This document shows, piece after piece, positions 3,366 through 54,075 of a stretch of DNA of 64,000 nt. The position numbers were made by a program, and so were the translations under genes. Origin of the DNA: Streptomyces armeniacus (GTDB lineage Bacteria > Actinomycetota > Actinomycetes > Streptomycetales > Streptomycetaceae). The notes below the pieces were generated by a model. It did no database searches, was not told the DNA's origin, and was given only the letters and a program-made list of their open reading frames with translations. Each line of letters starts with the position of its first letter. Positions within the stretch are counted from its first letter, which is position 1. The stretch lies in assembly GCF_003355155.1 (NCBI RefSeq), contig NZ_CP031320.1, positions 2,280,369 to 2,344,368 of the forward strand, written 5' to 3'.

Positions 3366-4537
3366 TCATTCCTCCGGGATCGGCAGGGGACGCTTCTCGA
3401 TCGCCGCGGCCATGACCTCGGGAAAGTGGTCGGGAGTGCAGGCGAACGCCGGCGCGCCGAGGGCGGCAAGCGCCGCCGCGTGCTCCCTGTCGTACGCCGG
3501 TGCGCCCTCGTCCGAGAGCGCGAGCAGCGTGACGAACTGCACGCCCGACGCCTTCATCGCCGCGACGCGTTTGAGCATCTCGTCGCGTATGCCGCCTTCG
3601 TAAAGGTCGCTGATGAGCACGACGACGGTGTCGGCGGGGCGGCTGATCTGCGACTGGCAGTACGCCAGGGCGCGGTTGATGTCCGTGCCGCCGCCGAGCT
3701 GGGTGCCGAACAGCACGTCCACCGGGTCGTCGAGATCGTCCGTCAGATCCACGACGTTCGTGTCGAAGACGACGAGCCGGGTGCTGATCGACCGCATCGA
3801 CGCGAGCACCGCGCCGAACACCGACGCGTACACGACCGAGGCCGCCATCGAGCCCGACTGGTCGATGCACAGCACGACGTCCTTCTTCACGGACTGCGCC
3901 GCGCGGCCGTAGCCGATCAGCCGCTCGGGCACGACCGTGCCGTACTCCGGGAGGTAGTTCTTCAGGTTGGCGCGGATGGTGCGGTTCCAGTCGATGTCCT
4001 GGTGCCGCGGCCGGCTCACCCGCGCGGAGCGGTCGAGCGCGCCGGTCAGCGTCGCGCGTGTGCGCGCCGCCAGCCGCTTCTCCAACTGCTCGACCACCTT
4101 CCGCACCACCGCCCTGGCGGTCTCCTTGCTGGTCTCGGGCATGGCCTTGTTCAACGACAGGAGCGTGCCCACGAGATGGACGTCCGCCTCGACGGCCTCG
4201 AGCATCTCCGGCTCCAGCAGCAGCGCCGACAGTCCGAGCCGGTCGATGGCGTCGCGCTGCATGACCTGCACGACGGAGCTCGGGAAGTACGTGCGGATGT
4301 CGCCGAGCCAGCGGGCGACCTGGGGCGCCGAACCGCCCAGCCCGGCGGAGCGGTCACCGCTGCGGGCGCCGCTGCCGTCGCCGTAGAGCGCCGTGAGCGT
4401 CTTGTCCATGGCGGCGTCGGTGCCGCTCAGTTCGCAGCCGGTGCCCTCCGCGCCCTGGCCGCCGCCGAGCACGAGGCGCCAGCGGCGCAGCCGCTCGTCG
4501 TCGGGGCGCGTGGCCGCGGGCCCCGCGTGTGTCTGGC

Positions 4538-4541
<4 letters not shown>
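3366..4541 (-). CDS. VWA domain (CoxE-like) protein of the MoxR-DUF5682 operon
   Basis: This encodes 391 residues from a TTG at 4541 that overlaps the stop of the DUF5682 gene (AGTTGA), with GGGAGGGTGAG as ribosome binding site; the product would begin MSQTHAG. The C-terminal half is a von Willebrand A domain: the MIDAS motif DQSGSM is at about residues 227-232, followed by the conserved GGGTDINRAL (MIDAS Thr) and VVLISDLYEGG. The N-terminal half carries a conserved region around WLGDIRTYFPSSVVQVMQRDA. MoxR-family AAA ATPases commonly work with VWA partners that recruit substrates through a metal-bound Asp; this gene is two genes downstream of such an ATPase in the same run. No signal peptide, so cytosolic. 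Confidence 0.88.
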
Positions 4542-7128
<2,587 letters not shown>

Positions 7129-7132
<4 letters not shown>

Positions 7133-8217
7133 GCGGAGACCTCCCGGCACGCGCGGTAGAAGTCCTTCCAGCCCTCGCGCTCGCGCACGACCGCCTCCAG
7201 ATACTCCTGCCACACCACCTGGTCCGCGGCCGGATCCCGCACGACCGCGCCGAGGATGCCCGCCGCCACGTCCGACGGGCGCAGCACCCCGTCCCCGAAG
7301 TGCGCCGCCAGCGCCAGCCCTCCGGTGACCACCGAGATGGCCTCGGCCGTCGAGAGGGTGCCCGAGGGCGACTTGACCTTCGTACGGCCGTCTCCCGTCA
7401 CGCCGTCGCGCAGCTCGCGGAAGACGGTGACGACGCGCCGTATCTCGTGCAGCCCTTCCGGCGCGGCCGGCAGGTCGAGGGACCGGCCGATCTGGTCGAC
7501 GCGGCGGGACACGATGTCGACCTCCTCGTCCGCAGTGGCGGGCAGCGGCAGCACCACGGTGTTGAAGCGGCGGCGCAGGGCGCTCGACAGCTCGTTCACA
7601 CCCCGGTCGCGGTCGTTGGCCGTGGCGATGAGGTTGAACCCGCGCACCGCCTGGGTCTCCTCGCCCAGCTCCGGGATGGGCAGCGTCTTCTCGGACAGCA
7701 CCGTGATCAGCGTGTCCTGCACGTCTGCCGGGATGCGGGTCAGCTCCTCGACCCGCGCGGTGAGGCCCTCGGCCATGGCCCGCATCACCGGGCTGGGCAC
7801 CAGGGCGTCGCGGCTGGGTCCGTGCGCGAGCAGCTGCGCGTAGTTCCACCCGTACCGGATGGACTCCTCCGACGTGCCCGCCGTCCCCTGGACGAGCAGC
7901 GTCGAGTCGCCGCTGACGGCGGCCGCGAGATGCTCGGACACCCAGGTCTTGGCGGTGCCGGGCACGCCGAGCAGCAGCAGCGCGCGGTCGGTCGCGAGGG
8001 TGCTGACGGCGACCTCGACGATCCGGCGGGGCCCGACGTACTTGGGCGTGATGGCGGTGCCGTCGGGCAGCGTGCCGCCGAGCAGATAGGTGGCGACGGC
8101 CCACGGCGACAGCTTCCAGCGCTCGGGACGCGGCCTGTCGTCGGCCGCCGCCAGCGCCTTGAGCTCCGTCGCGAAGGCGTTTTCGGCGTGCGGTCGCAGG
8201 GCATTCGTCTCGGTCAC
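7129..8217 (-). CDS. MoxR-type AAA+ ATPase
   Basis: This encodes 362 residues starting at the GTG at 8217 (GAGGGGGAG upstream). The Walker A motif GVPGTAKT is at residues 84-91, the RIPADVQDTLITVLSEK stretch corresponds to the MoxR Walker B / pre-sensor region, NLIATANDRDRG is sensor 1 and ALRRRF carries the arginine finger. This is the MoxR/RavA clade of AAA+ chaperone-like ATPases, which typically remodel or mature protein complexes with a VWA partner. It is the first gene of a tightly overlapping run (GTGA overlap with DUF5682, then VWA). A damage-type promoter-like element lies about 50 nt upstream, back-to-back with that of the SWIM gene. Confidence 0.92.
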
Positions 8218-8254
8218 AACTCCCCCTCGGCGTGCGGTGTATGAGCTGCACACC

Positions 8255-8277
8255 ACCTTGCACCCCGGCACTGACAA
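8255..8277 (-). promoter_or_regulatory. PafBC/RecA-NDp-like promoter for the MoxR operon (weaker)
   Basis: On the minus strand TTGTCAGTG (8277-8269) is followed after exactly 8 nt by CAAGGT (8260-8255), one mismatch from the TAnnnT -10 of the actinobacterial RecA-NDp element. The start codon is about 38 nt further on, with a normal ribosome binding site, so this mRNA would carry a leader. Confidence 0.6.
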
Positions 8278-8318
8278 TCGGCCCCGGCACACGTACGGGC
8301 CGCCGGCTCCGGGGCCGA

Positions 8319-8341
8319 TTGTCAGTGCCGGGCCCTACCGT
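8319..8341 (+). promoter_or_regulatory. PafBC/RecA-NDp promoter for SWIM-DUF5691, leaderless
   Basis: TTGTCAGTG (8319-8327), an 8-nt spacer, then TACCGT (8336-8341) fits the published mycobacterial RecA-NDp consensus TTGTCRGTG-N8-TAnnnT exactly. Seven nucleotides separate the -10 from the ATG at 8349, so transcription should start at or next to the start codon. This element and its minus-strand partner form a visible inverted repeat. Confidence 0.82.
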
Positions 8342-8348
8342 CGGAGAC

Positions 8349-9845
8349 ATGACTGGACAGGGGGCCCGCTGGACGGCGGAACAGGTAATGGCGCTGGCGC
8401 CTGACGCCGCGTCACGCAAGAGCGGGAGCAAGCTCGCCGCTCCCGGGCCGTGGTCCGAGGCCGGCGCGGGGGCCGGGGCGGTGTGGGGGCTGTGCAAGGG
8501 GAGCGGCAGCACTCCGTACCGGACCGTGGTGGACATCGACGGTGCGGAGGGGCCGGGGTACAAGTGCAGTTGCCCCAGCCGGAAGTTCCCGTGCAAGCAC
8601 GCGCTCGCCCTGCTCCTGCTGTGGGCGGGCGAGTCCGAGTCGGTGCGCGCGCTGCCCGCCGCGCCGGACTGGGCGGACGAGTGGCTCAGCGGCCGTCGCC
8701 GGCGCGCGGAGCAGCGCGCGGCGAAGGGCGCGCAGGGGGCGGACGACGAAGCGGCGGCGGGCGCGGGCGGCGGCAAGGCGCCGGCGGACCCGGAGGGGGC
8801 GCGGCGGCGGGCGGAGCGCAGGCACCGTTCGATCACGGCGGGCGCCACGGAGTTGGAGCAGCGTCTCGCGGACCTGCTGCGGGGCGGCCTCGCGGGGGCG
8901 GACCAGCAGGGGTACGCGGCGTGGGACGAGATGGCGGCCCGGATGGTCGACGCGCAGGCGCGCGGGCTGGCGGACCGCATACGGGAGTTGGGCGCGATCC
9001 CGACGTCGGGTCCGGGCTGGCCGGAGCGGCTCCTTTCCGAGTGCGCGCTGCTGCACCTGCTCACCCAGGGCTTCCTGGCGCTGGACAGCCCACCGCCGGA
9101 GGACGCCGCCGCGGAGGCCGTAGACGCGGCGGAGGCAGCCGTGCCCGCCGGGCAGGGTGGCGCGGCGCGGGCGCCGCTGCCCGAGCCGCTGGCGGCGACC
9201 GTACGGGCCAGGGTGGGGCTCACCGTGGACACGGCGAAGCTGCTGGCCGATCCCGCGGCGCGGGTGCGCGACGAGTGGCTGGTGCTGGCCCAGCGGGACA
9301 CGGACGAGGGGAAGCTGATCACGCGCCGCATATGGCTGCACGGGAGGCGGTCCCGACAGCCCGCGCTGCTCCTCTCGTTCGGTGCCGCGGGCCGTACGCC
9401 TCAGCAGTGGCTGCCGGTGGGCACGACGCTCGACGCCGACCTCGCCTTCTACCCCGGCGCGTGCCGGCTGCGCGCGGCGCTCGGCGAGCAGCACGGGCCG
9501 TCCGGTCCCGGATACGTGCCGGCCGGGGCCGGGGGTACGGTCACGGACGCGCTCGCCTCCTATGCCGCGGCGCTCTGCGACGACCCGTGGCTGGACAGCT
9601 GGCCGGTCGTCCTGACGGACGTCGTGCCGATACCGGTCCAGCCGGGAATTTCCTGGCAGTTGGCCGACGCTGACAGCGACGCGGCGCTTCCGGTCGCGCC
9701 CGGGTGCCGCCAGTCCGCGCTGTGGCGGCTCACGGCGCTCTCCGGGGGCGATCCGGTGACGGTGTTCGGGGAGTGCGGCCACCGCGGCTTCACGCCGCAC
9801 ACCGCGTGGGGACCGGCGGGCGAGCCCGAGGCGGTGCTGCTGTGA
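8349..9845 (+). CDS. SWIM zinc-finger protein
   Basis: This encodes 498 residues from the ATG at 8349, fixed by the promoter geometry just upstream. The SWIM signature CxCx6CxH is intact: C73-x-C75 and C82-x-H84 within YKCSCPSRKFPCKH, preceded by the usual VWGLCKGSGSTPYRTVVDI strand region. The middle (about 110-170) is a charged linker rich in Arg, Ala, Gly and Glu. The C-terminal 300 residues form a conserved region (LHGRRSRQPALLLSFG, FYPG) of unknown role. SWIM domains bind zinc and act in DNA or protein binding. The stop overlaps the next start (GTGA), so the two plus-strand genes form an operon facing MoxR-DUF5682-VWA. Confidence 0.88.
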   Translation: MTGQGARWTAEQVMALAPDAASRKSGSKLAAPGPWSEAGAGAGAVWGLCKGSGSTPYRTVVDIDGAEGPGYKCSCPSRKFPCKHALALLLLWAGESESVRALPAAPDWADEWLSGRRRRAEQRAAKGAQGADDEAAAGAGGGKAPADPEGARRRAERRHRSITAGATELEQRLADLLRGGLAGADQQGYAAWDEMAARMVDAQARGLADRIRELGAIPTSGPGWPERLLSECALLHLLTQGFLALDSPPPEDAAAEAVDAAEAAVPAGQGGAARAPLPEPLAATVRARVGLTVDTAKLLADPAARVRDEWLVLAQRDTDEGKLITRRIWLHGRRSRQPALLLSFGAAGRTPQQWLPVGTTLDADLAFYPGACRLRAALGEQHGPSGPGYVPAGAGGTVTDALASYAAALCDDPWLDSWPVVLTDVVPIPVQPGISWQLADADSDAALPVAPGCRQSALWRLTALSGGDPVTVFGECGHRGFTPHTAWGPAGEPEAVLL

Positions 9846-11608
9846 CGGGGATGACGGGGACGACGGTCGTTCGAGGGGAAGCGAGGGACACCGCTGTGGA
9901 CGCGACCGTGGCGTGGAGCGAGCTGGTGACGGCCGCCCTGCTGGGCGCCGAGCGGAGAACGCCGCCCGGCGGGAGCGTGACGGCGCTGCTGGACGCGGCG
10001 GCCGTCGAGACCGTGCGGCGCCGGGCCGGAATGCGGCCCACGGCGGCCGGTCCGCGCCTGGACCCCGCACCGGAGGACCACCGTCCGCCGCTCCCGGCCG
10101 CCGCGGCGCAGCGGCTCACGCTGCTGCTCGCGAACCGTTCGGGAGTCGGCGGGAACGGCGGCGGGCGCCGCGGCACCGCGCCGGACCTCGCCGAGCTGCT
10201 GCCGCAGTGGCTCGCCGCGGCGAACGAGTACGGCTACCGCGTGCCGGACGCGCAGCTTCCTGACCTGCTCGACGCGGCCCGTGCGCGTACGGATCTGCGC
10301 CCGCAGTCCCTCACGTTCGCGGGGCCGCGCGGGCTGTGGCTGGCCCGGCTGAACCCGGACTGGAAGTTCGCTCTCCGCAGCGCGGGACCGGTGCACGGGG
10401 CCGCCGGACCGACGCCCGCCGCCGACGACGCCCCGGAGCCGGGCACGGAAGCGGACCTCGGCCCCGCTTCCGGCGCCGATCCTGACGCCGATCCCGACGC
10501 CGAGGCCGTCCAACGGCTCTGGGACGAGGGGCTGTTCTCCGAGCGGGTCACCCTGCTGACCGCCCTGCGGCAGCGCGATCCGGCCGCCGGGCTGGCACTG
10601 CTCGCGCGCTCCTGGTCCGGCGAACGGGCCGAGGACCGGCTGATGTTCCTCGACTCCCTGCGCGGCGGCCTGTCCCCCGAGGACGAGCCCTTCCTGGAGG
10701 AGGCGCTGGCCGACCGCAGCCGTACGGTCCGTGCGACCGCCGCCGAACTGCTGTCCTCGCTCCCCGAGTCGGCGCTGGCGGCCCGGATGGCGGAGCGGGC
10801 CCGCTCCTGCGTGAGCCTGGACCGTACGGGCGGCGGCGTCCGTATCGTCGTCGAGGCGCCGCACGAGTGCGACGCGGCGATGCAGCGCGACGGGGTGAGC
10901 GCGAAGCCGCCGTCCGGGCGTGGCGAACGGGCCTGGTGGCTCGGGCAGTTGGTGGAGGCGGCGCCGCTGGCGGCGTGGACCGGGCGGTTCGGCGGCCGTA
11001 CGCCCGCCGAGATCACCGCGCTGCCGGTGGCCGACGACTGGCGGCAGGACCTGCACGCGGCGTGGTGTCTGGCGGCCGTGCGGCAGCGGGACGCCGAATG
11101 GGCGCGGGCCCTGATCGGCCCGCCGAGTGGCCCGCTCACCGACGGTCCGGGCGACCCGGCGAAGCTGCTGACGGTGCTGCCCGCGGACGAACGTGCCGAC
11201 TGGGCGGCCCGGTTCATCGCGGCACACGGGCTGTCGGAGGCGTTCCGAATACTCGGGGTGTGCGCGCTGCCCTGGTCGGATCCACTGGGCCGCGCGGTGG
11301 TGGACGCCCTGGAGATCGCGCGGGACGCGGGCAGTTACCCGTGGAGCTTCAGCGGGGTGATGGGCCTCGCGGAGCGCTGTCTCGACCCTGCGGACGCGGA
11401 CCGGCTGGCGCCCCTGGCGGCCGTTCCGGATGAGCCGGAGGACGGCTCACCCGGTGCCGGGAGCTACTGGTCGGAAGCCTTCCAGCGGCTGGTGTCCACG
11501 CTGCGGCTGCGCGCGGTGATGCTGGCCGAGCTGCGCGGCGAGGACGGCGGCGGGAAGGAACCGGCTGACGGGGAGGGCCCGGCGGACGGGCGCGAGAGCG
11601 CGCCGTAA
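9842..11608 (+). CDS. DUF5691 family HEAT-repeat-like protein
   Basis: This encodes 588 residues from a GTG at 9842 overlapping the SWIM stop; an in-frame ATG at 9851 is an alternative. The body is alpha-helical: LADRSRTVRATAAELLSSLPESALAARM (about 290-320) reads like a HEAT repeat, preceded by FSERVTLLTALRQRDPAAGLALL and followed by a conserved WWLGQLVEAAPLAAW block. Residues about 200-225 are an acidic Asp/Ala/Pro linker. DUF5691 proteins are known from genomes mainly as neighbours of SWIM and MoxR/VWA genes; no activity is established. A scaffold or adaptor within the five-gene block is the simplest inference. The short C-terminal tail is low-complexity. Confidence 0.82.
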   Translation: MTGMTGTTVVRGEARDTAVDATVAWSELVTAALLGAERRTPPGGSVTALLDAAAVETVRRRAGMRPTAAGPRLDPAPEDHRPPLPAAAAQRLTLLLANRSGVGGNGGGRRGTAPDLAELLPQWLAAANEYGYRVPDAQLPDLLDAARARTDLRPQSLTFAGPRGLWLARLNPDWKFALRSAGPVHGAAGPTPAADDAPEPGTEADLGPASGADPDADPDAEAVQRLWDEGLFSERVTLLTALRQRDPAAGLALLARSWSGERAEDRLMFLDSLRGGLSPEDEPFLEEALADRSRTVRATAAELLSSLPESALAARMAERARSCVSLDRTGGGVRIVVEAPHECDAAMQRDGVSAKPPSGRGERAWWLGQLVEAAPLAAWTGRFGGRTPAEITALPVADDWRQDLHAAWCLAAVRQRDAEWARALIGPPSGPLTDGPGDPAKLLTVLPADERADWAARFIAAHGLSEAFRILGVCALPWSDPLGRAVVDALEIARDAGSYPWSFSGVMGLAERCLDPADADRLAPLAAVPDEPEDGSPGAGSYWSEAFQRLVSTLRLRAVMLAELRGEDGGGKEPADGEGPADGRESAP

Positions 11609-16992: not shown

Positions 16993-17015
16993 AGTCTAGG
17001 CCGCCGCACTGACAG
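16993..17015 (-). promoter_or_regulatory. PafBC/RecA-NDp promoter of pcrA
   Basis: On the minus strand CTGTCAGTG (17015-17007), an 8-nt spacer and TAGACT (16998-16993) match the RecA-NDp consensus except for the first base. Nine nucleotides separate the -10 from the ATG, so the leader would be at most 2-3 nt. Confidence 0.75.
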
Positions 17016-52910: not shown

Positions 52911-52933
52911 ACCCTACGGGCCGCCACTGACAA
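52911..52933 (-). promoter_or_regulatory. PafBC/RecA-NDp promoter of ogt, leaderless
   Basis: On the minus strand TTGTCAGTG (52933-52925), 8 nt, TAGGGT (52916-52911) is a perfect consensus match. The -10 ends 7 nt before the GTG start. Confidence 0.85.
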
Positions 52934-52943
52934 CGAGGCTCGC

Positions 52944-52952
52944 CACTGACAA
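52944..52952 (-). promoter_or_regulatory. Second TTGTCAGTG box upstream of ogt
   Basis: An extra perfect nonamer lies 19 nt upstream of the functional-looking one, within a duplicated gttgtcagtggcg segment, but has no TAnnnT at the right distance (CGTTGT instead). It may be an auxiliary site or a duplication remnant. Confidence 0.5.
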
Positions 52953-54052: not shown

Positions 54053-54075
54053 TTGTCAGTGGCGGGTCGTACCGT
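54053..54075 (+). promoter_or_regulatory. PafBC/RecA-NDp promoter of uvrB, leaderless
   Basis: TTGTCAGTG (54053-54061), 8 nt, TACCGT (54070-54075), consensus match; the ATG at 54083 follows after 7 nt. Confidence 0.83.

Follow-up and report, generated by a model that had tools for sequence, protein, structure and literature searches.

Which signal drives the two divergent operons that face each other across positions 8218-8348 of the 64,000-nt stretch of the Streptomyces armeniacus genome analysed here (the window), and what can that signal tell us about the uncharacterised MoxR-SWIM block that they encode? A preliminary description had read DNA-damage promoters of the PafBC type on both sides of this spacer and had taken the five genes behind them to form one damage-induced system. 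Few clues point to what this gene set does, and its regulation is among them. Of 121 genomes of the genus, 113 have its MoxR gene; the set is also found in Deinococcus, Rhizobium and Hymenobacter, and E. coli K-12 has another form of it.

A motif pair between two divergent operons

The plus-strand operon encodes a SWIM zinc-finger protein of 498 aa (8349..9845; PF04434, E 4.5e-7) and a DUF5691 protein of 588 aa (9842..11608, starting at GTG 9842 or ATG 9851; PF18944, E 2.4e-175), the reading frame of which overlaps the SWIM stop. On the minus strand lie genes for a MoxR-like AAA+ ATPase of the AAA_5 family (7129..8217, 362 aa; PF07728, E 3.6e-37; Walker A GVPGTAKT), a DUF5682 protein of 864 aa (4538..7132; PF18934, E 2.2e-295) and a VWA (CoxE-like) protein (3366..4541, starting at TTG 4541 or ATG 4409; VWA_CoxE, PF05762, E 2.3e-62), in whose sequence a MIDAS-like DQSGS (DxSxS) is visible. 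The five gene names given earlier are borne out by these Pfam matches, and reading frames overlap within the operons, as in translationally coupled operons. The closest named relatives of the DUF5682 protein are Streptomyces proteins, with at best 80% identity.

Both motifs lie within the spacer. Toward SWIM-DUF5691, the plus strand at 8319..8341 carries an exact PafBC/RecA-NDp-type promoter pattern, with TTGTCAGTG at 8319-8327 as the -26 element, N8, and TACCGT at 8336-8341 as the -10. Toward MoxR-DUF5682-VWA, the minus strand at 8255..8277 carries TTGTCAGTG (8277-8269), N8 and CAAGGT (8260-8255); the nonamer is again exact, and the -10 departs from TANNNT at one position, with C in place of T. 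A pattern scan reproduced the two nonamers on opposite strands, 41 nt apart, and the idea of back-to-back PafBC-type promoters stands as proposed for the SWIM side, with its full consensus, but must be qualified for the MoxR side, where the -10 is an off-consensus CANNNT variant that is conserved (see below). In the whole window, TTGTCRGTG-N8-TANNNT was found three times and never in 100 shuffles, and the nonamer alone six times against a shuffle mean of 0.59, with a maximum of 3 in any shuffle. Another nonamer, TTGTCGGTG at 1323-1331, has no correctly placed -10 and is probably a chance occurrence.

The start codon of SWIM, ATG 8349, lies 7 nt past the -10 TACCGT, so the SWIM-DUF5691 mRNA is probably leaderless; the MoxR gene starts with GTG 8217, immediately preceded by GAGGGGGAG. 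Two other readings of the spacer were set aside. Control by LexA (SOS) was rejected, as GAAC-N4-GTTC has no match at up to one mismatch between 5993 and 10744. Both nonamers are contained in a perfect 24-bp inverted repeat (8264-8287 and 8309-8332), which we rejected as an operator or terminator that would be the main explanation, because in 73 other loci measured the arms shrink while the nonamers and -10 regions stay; with arms of 9-21 nt in those loci, the length of 24 bp is peculiar to S. armeniacus.

Published work on this promoter class is cited here from excerpts of the papers. The TTGTCRGTG-N8-TANNNT promoter type is reported at Streptomyces recA (Ahel 2002, as cited in PMC5087735), and the UV-inducible SCO6735 carries a RecA-NDp promoter (PMC5087735). 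In mycobacteria, PafBC activated by single-stranded DNA (ssDNA) lets RNA polymerase start (PMC11804915). The present system resembles the PafBC regulon in its TTGTCRGTG at -26, N8 and TANNNT, in targets that include recA, ruvC, uvrB and further repair genes, and in the presence of PafBC. It differs from known RecA-NDp promoters in that a single spacer drives an uncharacterised MoxR-SWIM block in both directions, and in the conserved CANNNT -10 of its MoxR side. In the part of the literature that was searched, we found nothing that joins the block genes to the nonamer motif, no mention of DUF5691, and no link of the block genes to PafBC or DNA damage save for the WGR and DUF4132 genes of Deinococcus (PMC8533742).

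Recurrence in the genome, the genus and other actinobacteria

The 8.08-Mb genome of S. armeniacus, a single contig of which the window spans 2280369-2344368, contains 26 matches to TTGTCRGTG-N8-TANNNT and none to the reversed pattern. Across 61 genomes of the genus, the source genome included, 1501 motif matches stood against six reversed controls, with a median of 22 per genome and at least one in every genome (61/61). We inspected all 25 other sites of the S. armeniacus genome, 23 in 22 regions and two in the window. Thirteen precede genes for DNA repair, replication or dTMP synthesis, namely those for a UvrD-like helicase, a PD-(D/E)XK nuclease, a RecD2-like helicase, RuvC, RarA, DnaE, RecD2, UDG, ThyX, RecA, an AlkZ-like glycosylase, Ogt and UvrB. 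The other twelve lead into genes without an evident repair role, or into no clear gene; PhoH, glyoxalase, luciferase-like, MDMPI, AAA_16, SnoaL and methyltransferase proteins are found there, along with some that have no Pfam match. This share of repair-type targets supports the earlier view that the motif is specific rather than a chance match. That view had also named pcrA, uvrB and ogt as classical partners in the window; all three genes were confirmed by Pfam, and the motif is exact at uvrB (54053..54075, plus strand) and ogt (52911..52933, minus strand), but at pcrA (16993..17015, minus strand) it has one mismatch, as CTGTCAGTG-N8-TAGACT. A start codon about 7 nt past the -10 recurs among the genome sites, which points to leaderless mRNAs.

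Two side observations concern these sites. A second TTGTCAGTG lies at 52944-52952 of the window, on the same strand as the ogt promoter nonamer and 19 nt upstream of it, and the genome sites at 4399312 (L017) and 4422276 (L018) share a duplicated stretch, comprising the motif and 34 nt upstream of it, at a distance of 23 kb; the first copy precedes the UDG gene and the second has no clear gene after it.

The regulator is present as well. Homologues of PafB and PafC are encoded (phmmer against the regulator chains of 7p5x, E 3.4e-57 and 2.6e-52, the latter named PafC), both also match the fused PafBC of 6sj9, and PafA, an equivalog match, is encoded within the same 12 kb.

Orthologous loci of the genus bear more directly on the block itself. 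A MoxR search of 121 genomes gave matches in 117; the best match was the ortholog in 113 (at least 87% identity, one of them in two pieces), and four genomes had a paralog alone. Among the 90 of these 113 orthologous loci that we examined, the source genome included, the full motif toward SWIM was present in 78, the nonamer toward MoxR in 85, and both in 73; a stricter spacer lowers these counts to 76, 83 and 71. The preliminary description, which named absence of the motif from orthologous promoters as grounds for its refutation, is not refuted by these counts, although the 90 loci are not independent since all belong to one genus. The nonamer positions carry 1.9-2.0 bits, against 0-1.3 bits in the 15 nt that precede each nonamer. 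Toward MoxR, the last bases of the N8 (TGGTG) are also conserved, and the -10 reads CANNNT in 84 of 85 loci (CACGGT in 48) and TANNNT in one; the CANNNT variant is kept, and probably makes for a weaker promoter. The distance from the SWIM -10 to the start is 7 nt in most loci in which both could be read. Eight loci had no SWIM match within the stretch read, and those without an exact SWIM-side motif include L043 and L115.

These counts also speak to a published question. As far as the excerpt of a 2022 paper goes, an initial search had suggested that the M. smegmatis motif is not conserved in S. venezuelae (PMC9380542); the counts from the genus argue otherwise, and they bear on the possible RecA/LexA-independent, PafBC-type response in Streptomyces that the same paper raises.

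Within the spacer, most of the 73 loci have 26-27, 36-38, 49-50 or 60-61 nt between the two divergent nonamers, values that are close to an 11-nt step, with single values of 41, 71, 81, 84, 92, 107, 126, 164 and 601 nt. Helical phasing of the two promoters is a lead, as a cluster-level test with a free period was not significant (0.087), with relatedness uncontrolled; the 41-nt gap of S. armeniacus is out of phase with the 11-nt step. A further conserved element, GCAGGTCAG(A/G), was seen in 69 of the 90 orthologous spacers and is absent from 8278-8318 of the window. It sits 5-6 or 17-18 nt before one nonamer (distances that were preset), on the SWIM or the MoxR side, and never twice in a locus. 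Its extended pattern, GTNNNNGCAGGTCAGRRCG, had 28 matches in 16 of 16 genomes, against two for reversed controls, and only five of the 28 are at this locus, so we rejected the idea that the element is specific to the block. At 20 of the 23 other places there is no PafBC-type match with fewer than four mismatches in the next 80 nt, and few of the 20 lead into a clear gene. This recurrence without a PafBC-type motif suggests that GCAGGTCAG is possibly the site of a second regulator.

Outside the genus the arrangement changes. A class-level search found a close MoxR in 62 of 296 genomes, 35 of them outside the genus, where SWIM and MoxR point the same way, with SWIM upstream; one of the 35 is at a contig end, and 31 loci with SWIM and upstream DNA were scored. 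The best motif upstream of SWIM had 0, 1, 2, 3, 4 and 5 mismatches in 3, 8, 8, 7, 2 and 3 loci, respectively. At most two mismatches were thus seen in 19 of 31 loci, compared with 1.3% of 304 control windows taken from these loci, which are mostly coding; an in-frame ATG or GTG of SWIM lay 6-8 nt past the -10 in 25 of 31, compared with 6.2% of control windows. Five loci (L226, L233, L245, L246 and L251) had neither a start at this distance nor a match with fewer than three mismatches, and one (L234) had a one-mismatch motif without such a start. Nonomuraea, two Nocardia and G169 have one or two mismatches at the SWIM start, each with a shuffle fraction of about 0.01 or less. In seven loci of distant actinobacteria (L183-L189) the best matches had two to five mismatches. 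By eye, SWIM starts in five of these (L184-L188, families f26 and f28) have TGTSRCAC-like elements before TANNNT, and the recA of genome G278 has ATGTCACAC-N8-TACCGT; these elements are perhaps a lineage variant of the -26 element.

Divergent modules and other phyla

A damage module would be expected to have divergent relatives under the same kind of control, and this prediction held. Twenty divergent-module loci of the genus were chosen among the MoxR paralog matches listed, and 15 of them have an exact sense-strand motif; by genome density, the probability of an exact sense match within 500 nt is 0.0007. Modules with a VWA-like gene before MoxR have the exact motif in nine of ten cases, the tenth having CATGCT as its -10; here the motif stands ahead of a gene without a Pfam family, about 2.5 kb upstream of the VWA match. 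The exact motif was seen in four of eight DUF4132-first modules, one miss being on a truncated contig, in both of the two E. coli-like modules (WGR-DUF4132 first), and at a module locus on a Streptomyces plasmid. A scan of 41 genomes of the genus found 16 WGR genes in 16 genomes (L203-L218), all of which have the motif within one mismatch (12 exact, four with one mismatch) 36-109 nt before the WGR match; one of these genes (L218) had already been counted among the divergent modules (L182). One of the WGR proteins that were scanned has a weak match to the propeller protein BamB after its WGR domain. The S. armeniacus genome was found to have neither WGR nor DUF4132.

The order SWIM-DUF5691-MoxR-DUF5682-VWA, in one direction, is annotated in D. 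taeanensis, where a small additional gene is present, and in Rhizobium; tblastn found it in Nonomuraea, two Nocardia and Methylobacterium. It supports the claim that the five genes are one system. Some annotations are less complete: Methylosinus has no VWA annotated, Hymenobacter HDW8 no SWIM apart from a long DUF5691 gene, and H. radiodurans has an annotated SWIM and no annotated VWA, with DUF5682 in three pieces. In a second form of the module, found in E. coli yeh, Iodobacter, Sinorhizobium and the Streptomyces plasmid, DUF4132 or WGR proteins replace DUF5691. The E. coli genes yehF-yehH-yehI-yehK-yehL-yehM-yehP-yehQ resemble the block in holding MoxR (40% identity), DUF5682 (25%), VWA (37%) and SWIM in one run, with MoxR, DUF5682 and VWA adjacent in both. 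They differ in having WGR and DUF4132 and no DUF5691, in lying on one strand, with SWIM in the same run rather than in a divergent operon, and in a promoter that is not of the PafBC type; yehH is annotated as a pseudogene. PF04434 matches the SWIM proteins of both, but BLASTP between them gives E 0.99. Plasmid copies of the module (L155, L150, L162) were also observed, near type I restriction genes in Iodobacter and near recombinase and PDDEXK genes in Hymenobacter.

Damage regulators other than PafBC may govern the module elsewhere. The operon of D. taeanensis has an RDRM-like palindrome, which begins 35 nt ahead of the SWIM start as annotated. With a DdrO weight matrix built from 38 published DdrO sites, which themselves have a median of 17.7, it scores 20.4; apart from the opposite-strand reading of the same site, the next best in the 20-kb locus reaches 10.1, and none of 60 first-order simulated loci reached 20.4, the best scoring 17.2. 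This result stands for one Deinococcus locus, as a scan for others yielded four loci, none of them from Deinococcus, although many Deinococcus DUF5682 proteins, among them those of D. soli, D. maricopensis and D. wulumuqiensis, are among the matches listed. The RDRM consensus at two mismatches also matches two AT-rich promoters of Hymenobacter (shuffle fraction 0.017-0.03), where DdrO is not expected. According to an excerpt of PMC8533742, DR2173 (WGR) and the DRA0165-DRA0166 operon (DUF4132) of D. radiodurans are under DdrO, and the DR2173 and DRA0166 proteins rise with mitomycin C, but not in an irrE mutant. The DdrO/RDRM regulon is thus like the present system in its WGR and DUF4132 members and in the RDRM-type site of the five-gene operon of D. 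taeanensis, and unlike it in using another regulator and another operator. The sequences at these loci suggest that in no fewer than two unrelated settings the module answers to the local damage regulator, through PafBC-type promoters in actinomycetes and through a DdrO-type operator in Deinococcus.

At the yehF-yehI region of E. coli, which we take to be molR, a LexA-like box lies 10 nt before yehF; as one of ten such one-mismatch sites in 22 kb, it is not significant alone. Excerpts of two papers list molR among LexA-regulated genes (PMC11039860; PMC4576408). In Rhizobium, Methylosinus, Methylobacterium and a Desulfovibrio-like MAG we recognised no known damage box at the operon start, and alphaproteobacterial LexA boxes were sought without result at those of Rhizobium and Methylosinus. 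In Sinorhizobium an exact LexA box lies about 700 nt upstream of MoxR, but the 18 kb there contain three such boxes.

What the block may do

We consider it likely that the five genes of the block form one overlooked module of the DNA-damage response, with PafBC-type promoters driving it both ways. Damage would lead to ssDNA-activated PafBC, with which the housekeeping RNA polymerase would use the TTGTCAGTG (-26)/-10 promoters; we infer the activation step from the conservation of the motif, from the PafB and PafC homologues of this genome and from published work on mycobacteria. SWIM-DUF5691 would then be transcribed as a leaderless mRNA, and MoxR-DUF5682-VWA as one that has a leader and is probably weaker. 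Since the gene order is kept in other phyla, the five products would be expected to act together. Judging by their domains, the MoxR AAA+ ATPase and the VWA protein could together make up a machine for remodelling, with the SWIM zinc-finger protein and DUF5691 as possible nucleic-acid or substrate adaptors, and DUF5682 could offer a putative hydrolase domain carried by a helical scaffold. Most likely the module would serve to remodel or clear damaged nucleoprotein or protein complexes after genotoxic stress, these biochemical steps being drawn from domain resemblance.

How far this extends is a separate matter. A bolder reading, slightly less likely than not, is that of an overlooked damage-response machine of MoxR, VWA, DUF5682 and SWIM, together with DUF5691 or WGR-DUF4132, that would have been wired independently to PafBC, DdrO and LexA and would act directly on damaged DNA or stuck proteins. 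If three unrelated damage regulators do control it, the module belongs in the textbook damage response, and the idea is testable in E. coli K-12 and in Streptomyces. A rather unlikely alternative is a MoxR-vWA anti-phage or conflict system, with defence or cell death and not repair as its output; its expression would be tied to damage since DNA is harmed in phage infection, in prophage induction and in antibiotic warfare alike. An excerpt of PMC7159879 describes MoxR-vWA ternary systems as conflict systems, and the block likewise joins a MoxR ATPase and a vWA protein to further partners. The plasmid-borne copies near restriction, recombinase or PDDEXK genes and a weak match to the Pfam bpMoxR domain (23.0 bits, below the cut-off of 27) point the same way. 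However, the partners in the block are SWIM, DUF5691 and DUF5682, and SWIM, WGR, DUF4132, YehL, TIKI and DNA damage have no occurrence in the text of PMC7159879 as available. A search of PADLOC-DB with the five proteins gave only one marginal match, to an RtcR-type AAA model (E 0.0098), and a MoxR ortholog in 113 of 121 genomes is not patchy like defence islands.

The block might instead encode a housekeeping chaperone, for example for metal or cofactor insertion as in other MoxR-VWA pairs, that is needed more under genotoxic or oxidative stress and for which the damage promoter is one input. This we regard as unlikely too, by a shade more than the conflict system. It would suit the VWA_CoxE similarity, the GCAGGTCAG element with its hint of a second regulator, and mycobacterial PafBC, which also controls oxidative-stress genes (PMC8223512, in excerpt), but the link to damage recurs, in the WGR genes and divergent modules as well as at the DdrO-type site in Deinococcus. 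Lastly, the promoters could be real and yet be read by a WYL-type activator other than PafBC. SiwR, a mycobacterial WYL activator, acts at the -26 region (PMC10693628, in excerpt), and the S. armeniacus genome has ten WYL matches; against this, the motif found at the block also stands ahead of recA and repair genes in this genome, as in the published RecA-NDp class, and the PafB and PafC homologues lie beside pafA, so that such an activator seems very improbable.

Among the products of the proposed damage-response module, DUF5682 offers some further detail. Its AlphaFold2 model is confident (pLDDT 85.9) and two-part, and alignment and model together show that the N-terminal part is alpha/beta and holds invariant HH, E and GxxH, and that the C-terminal part is helical. 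TIKI/TraB-like hydrolases are defined by their fold and two GxxH motifs. The N-terminal domain of DUF5682 has GVRH and GAWH, with invariant H and E, a GxxH pair that recalls those hydrolases. A profile comparison with E. coli YbaP was weak (E 0.066) and aligned at the second GxxH only, and the results of a fold search with the whole model were filled by the helical part. H11, H12, E35, E80, D98 and H249 are invariant in nine sequences that cover both forms of the module.
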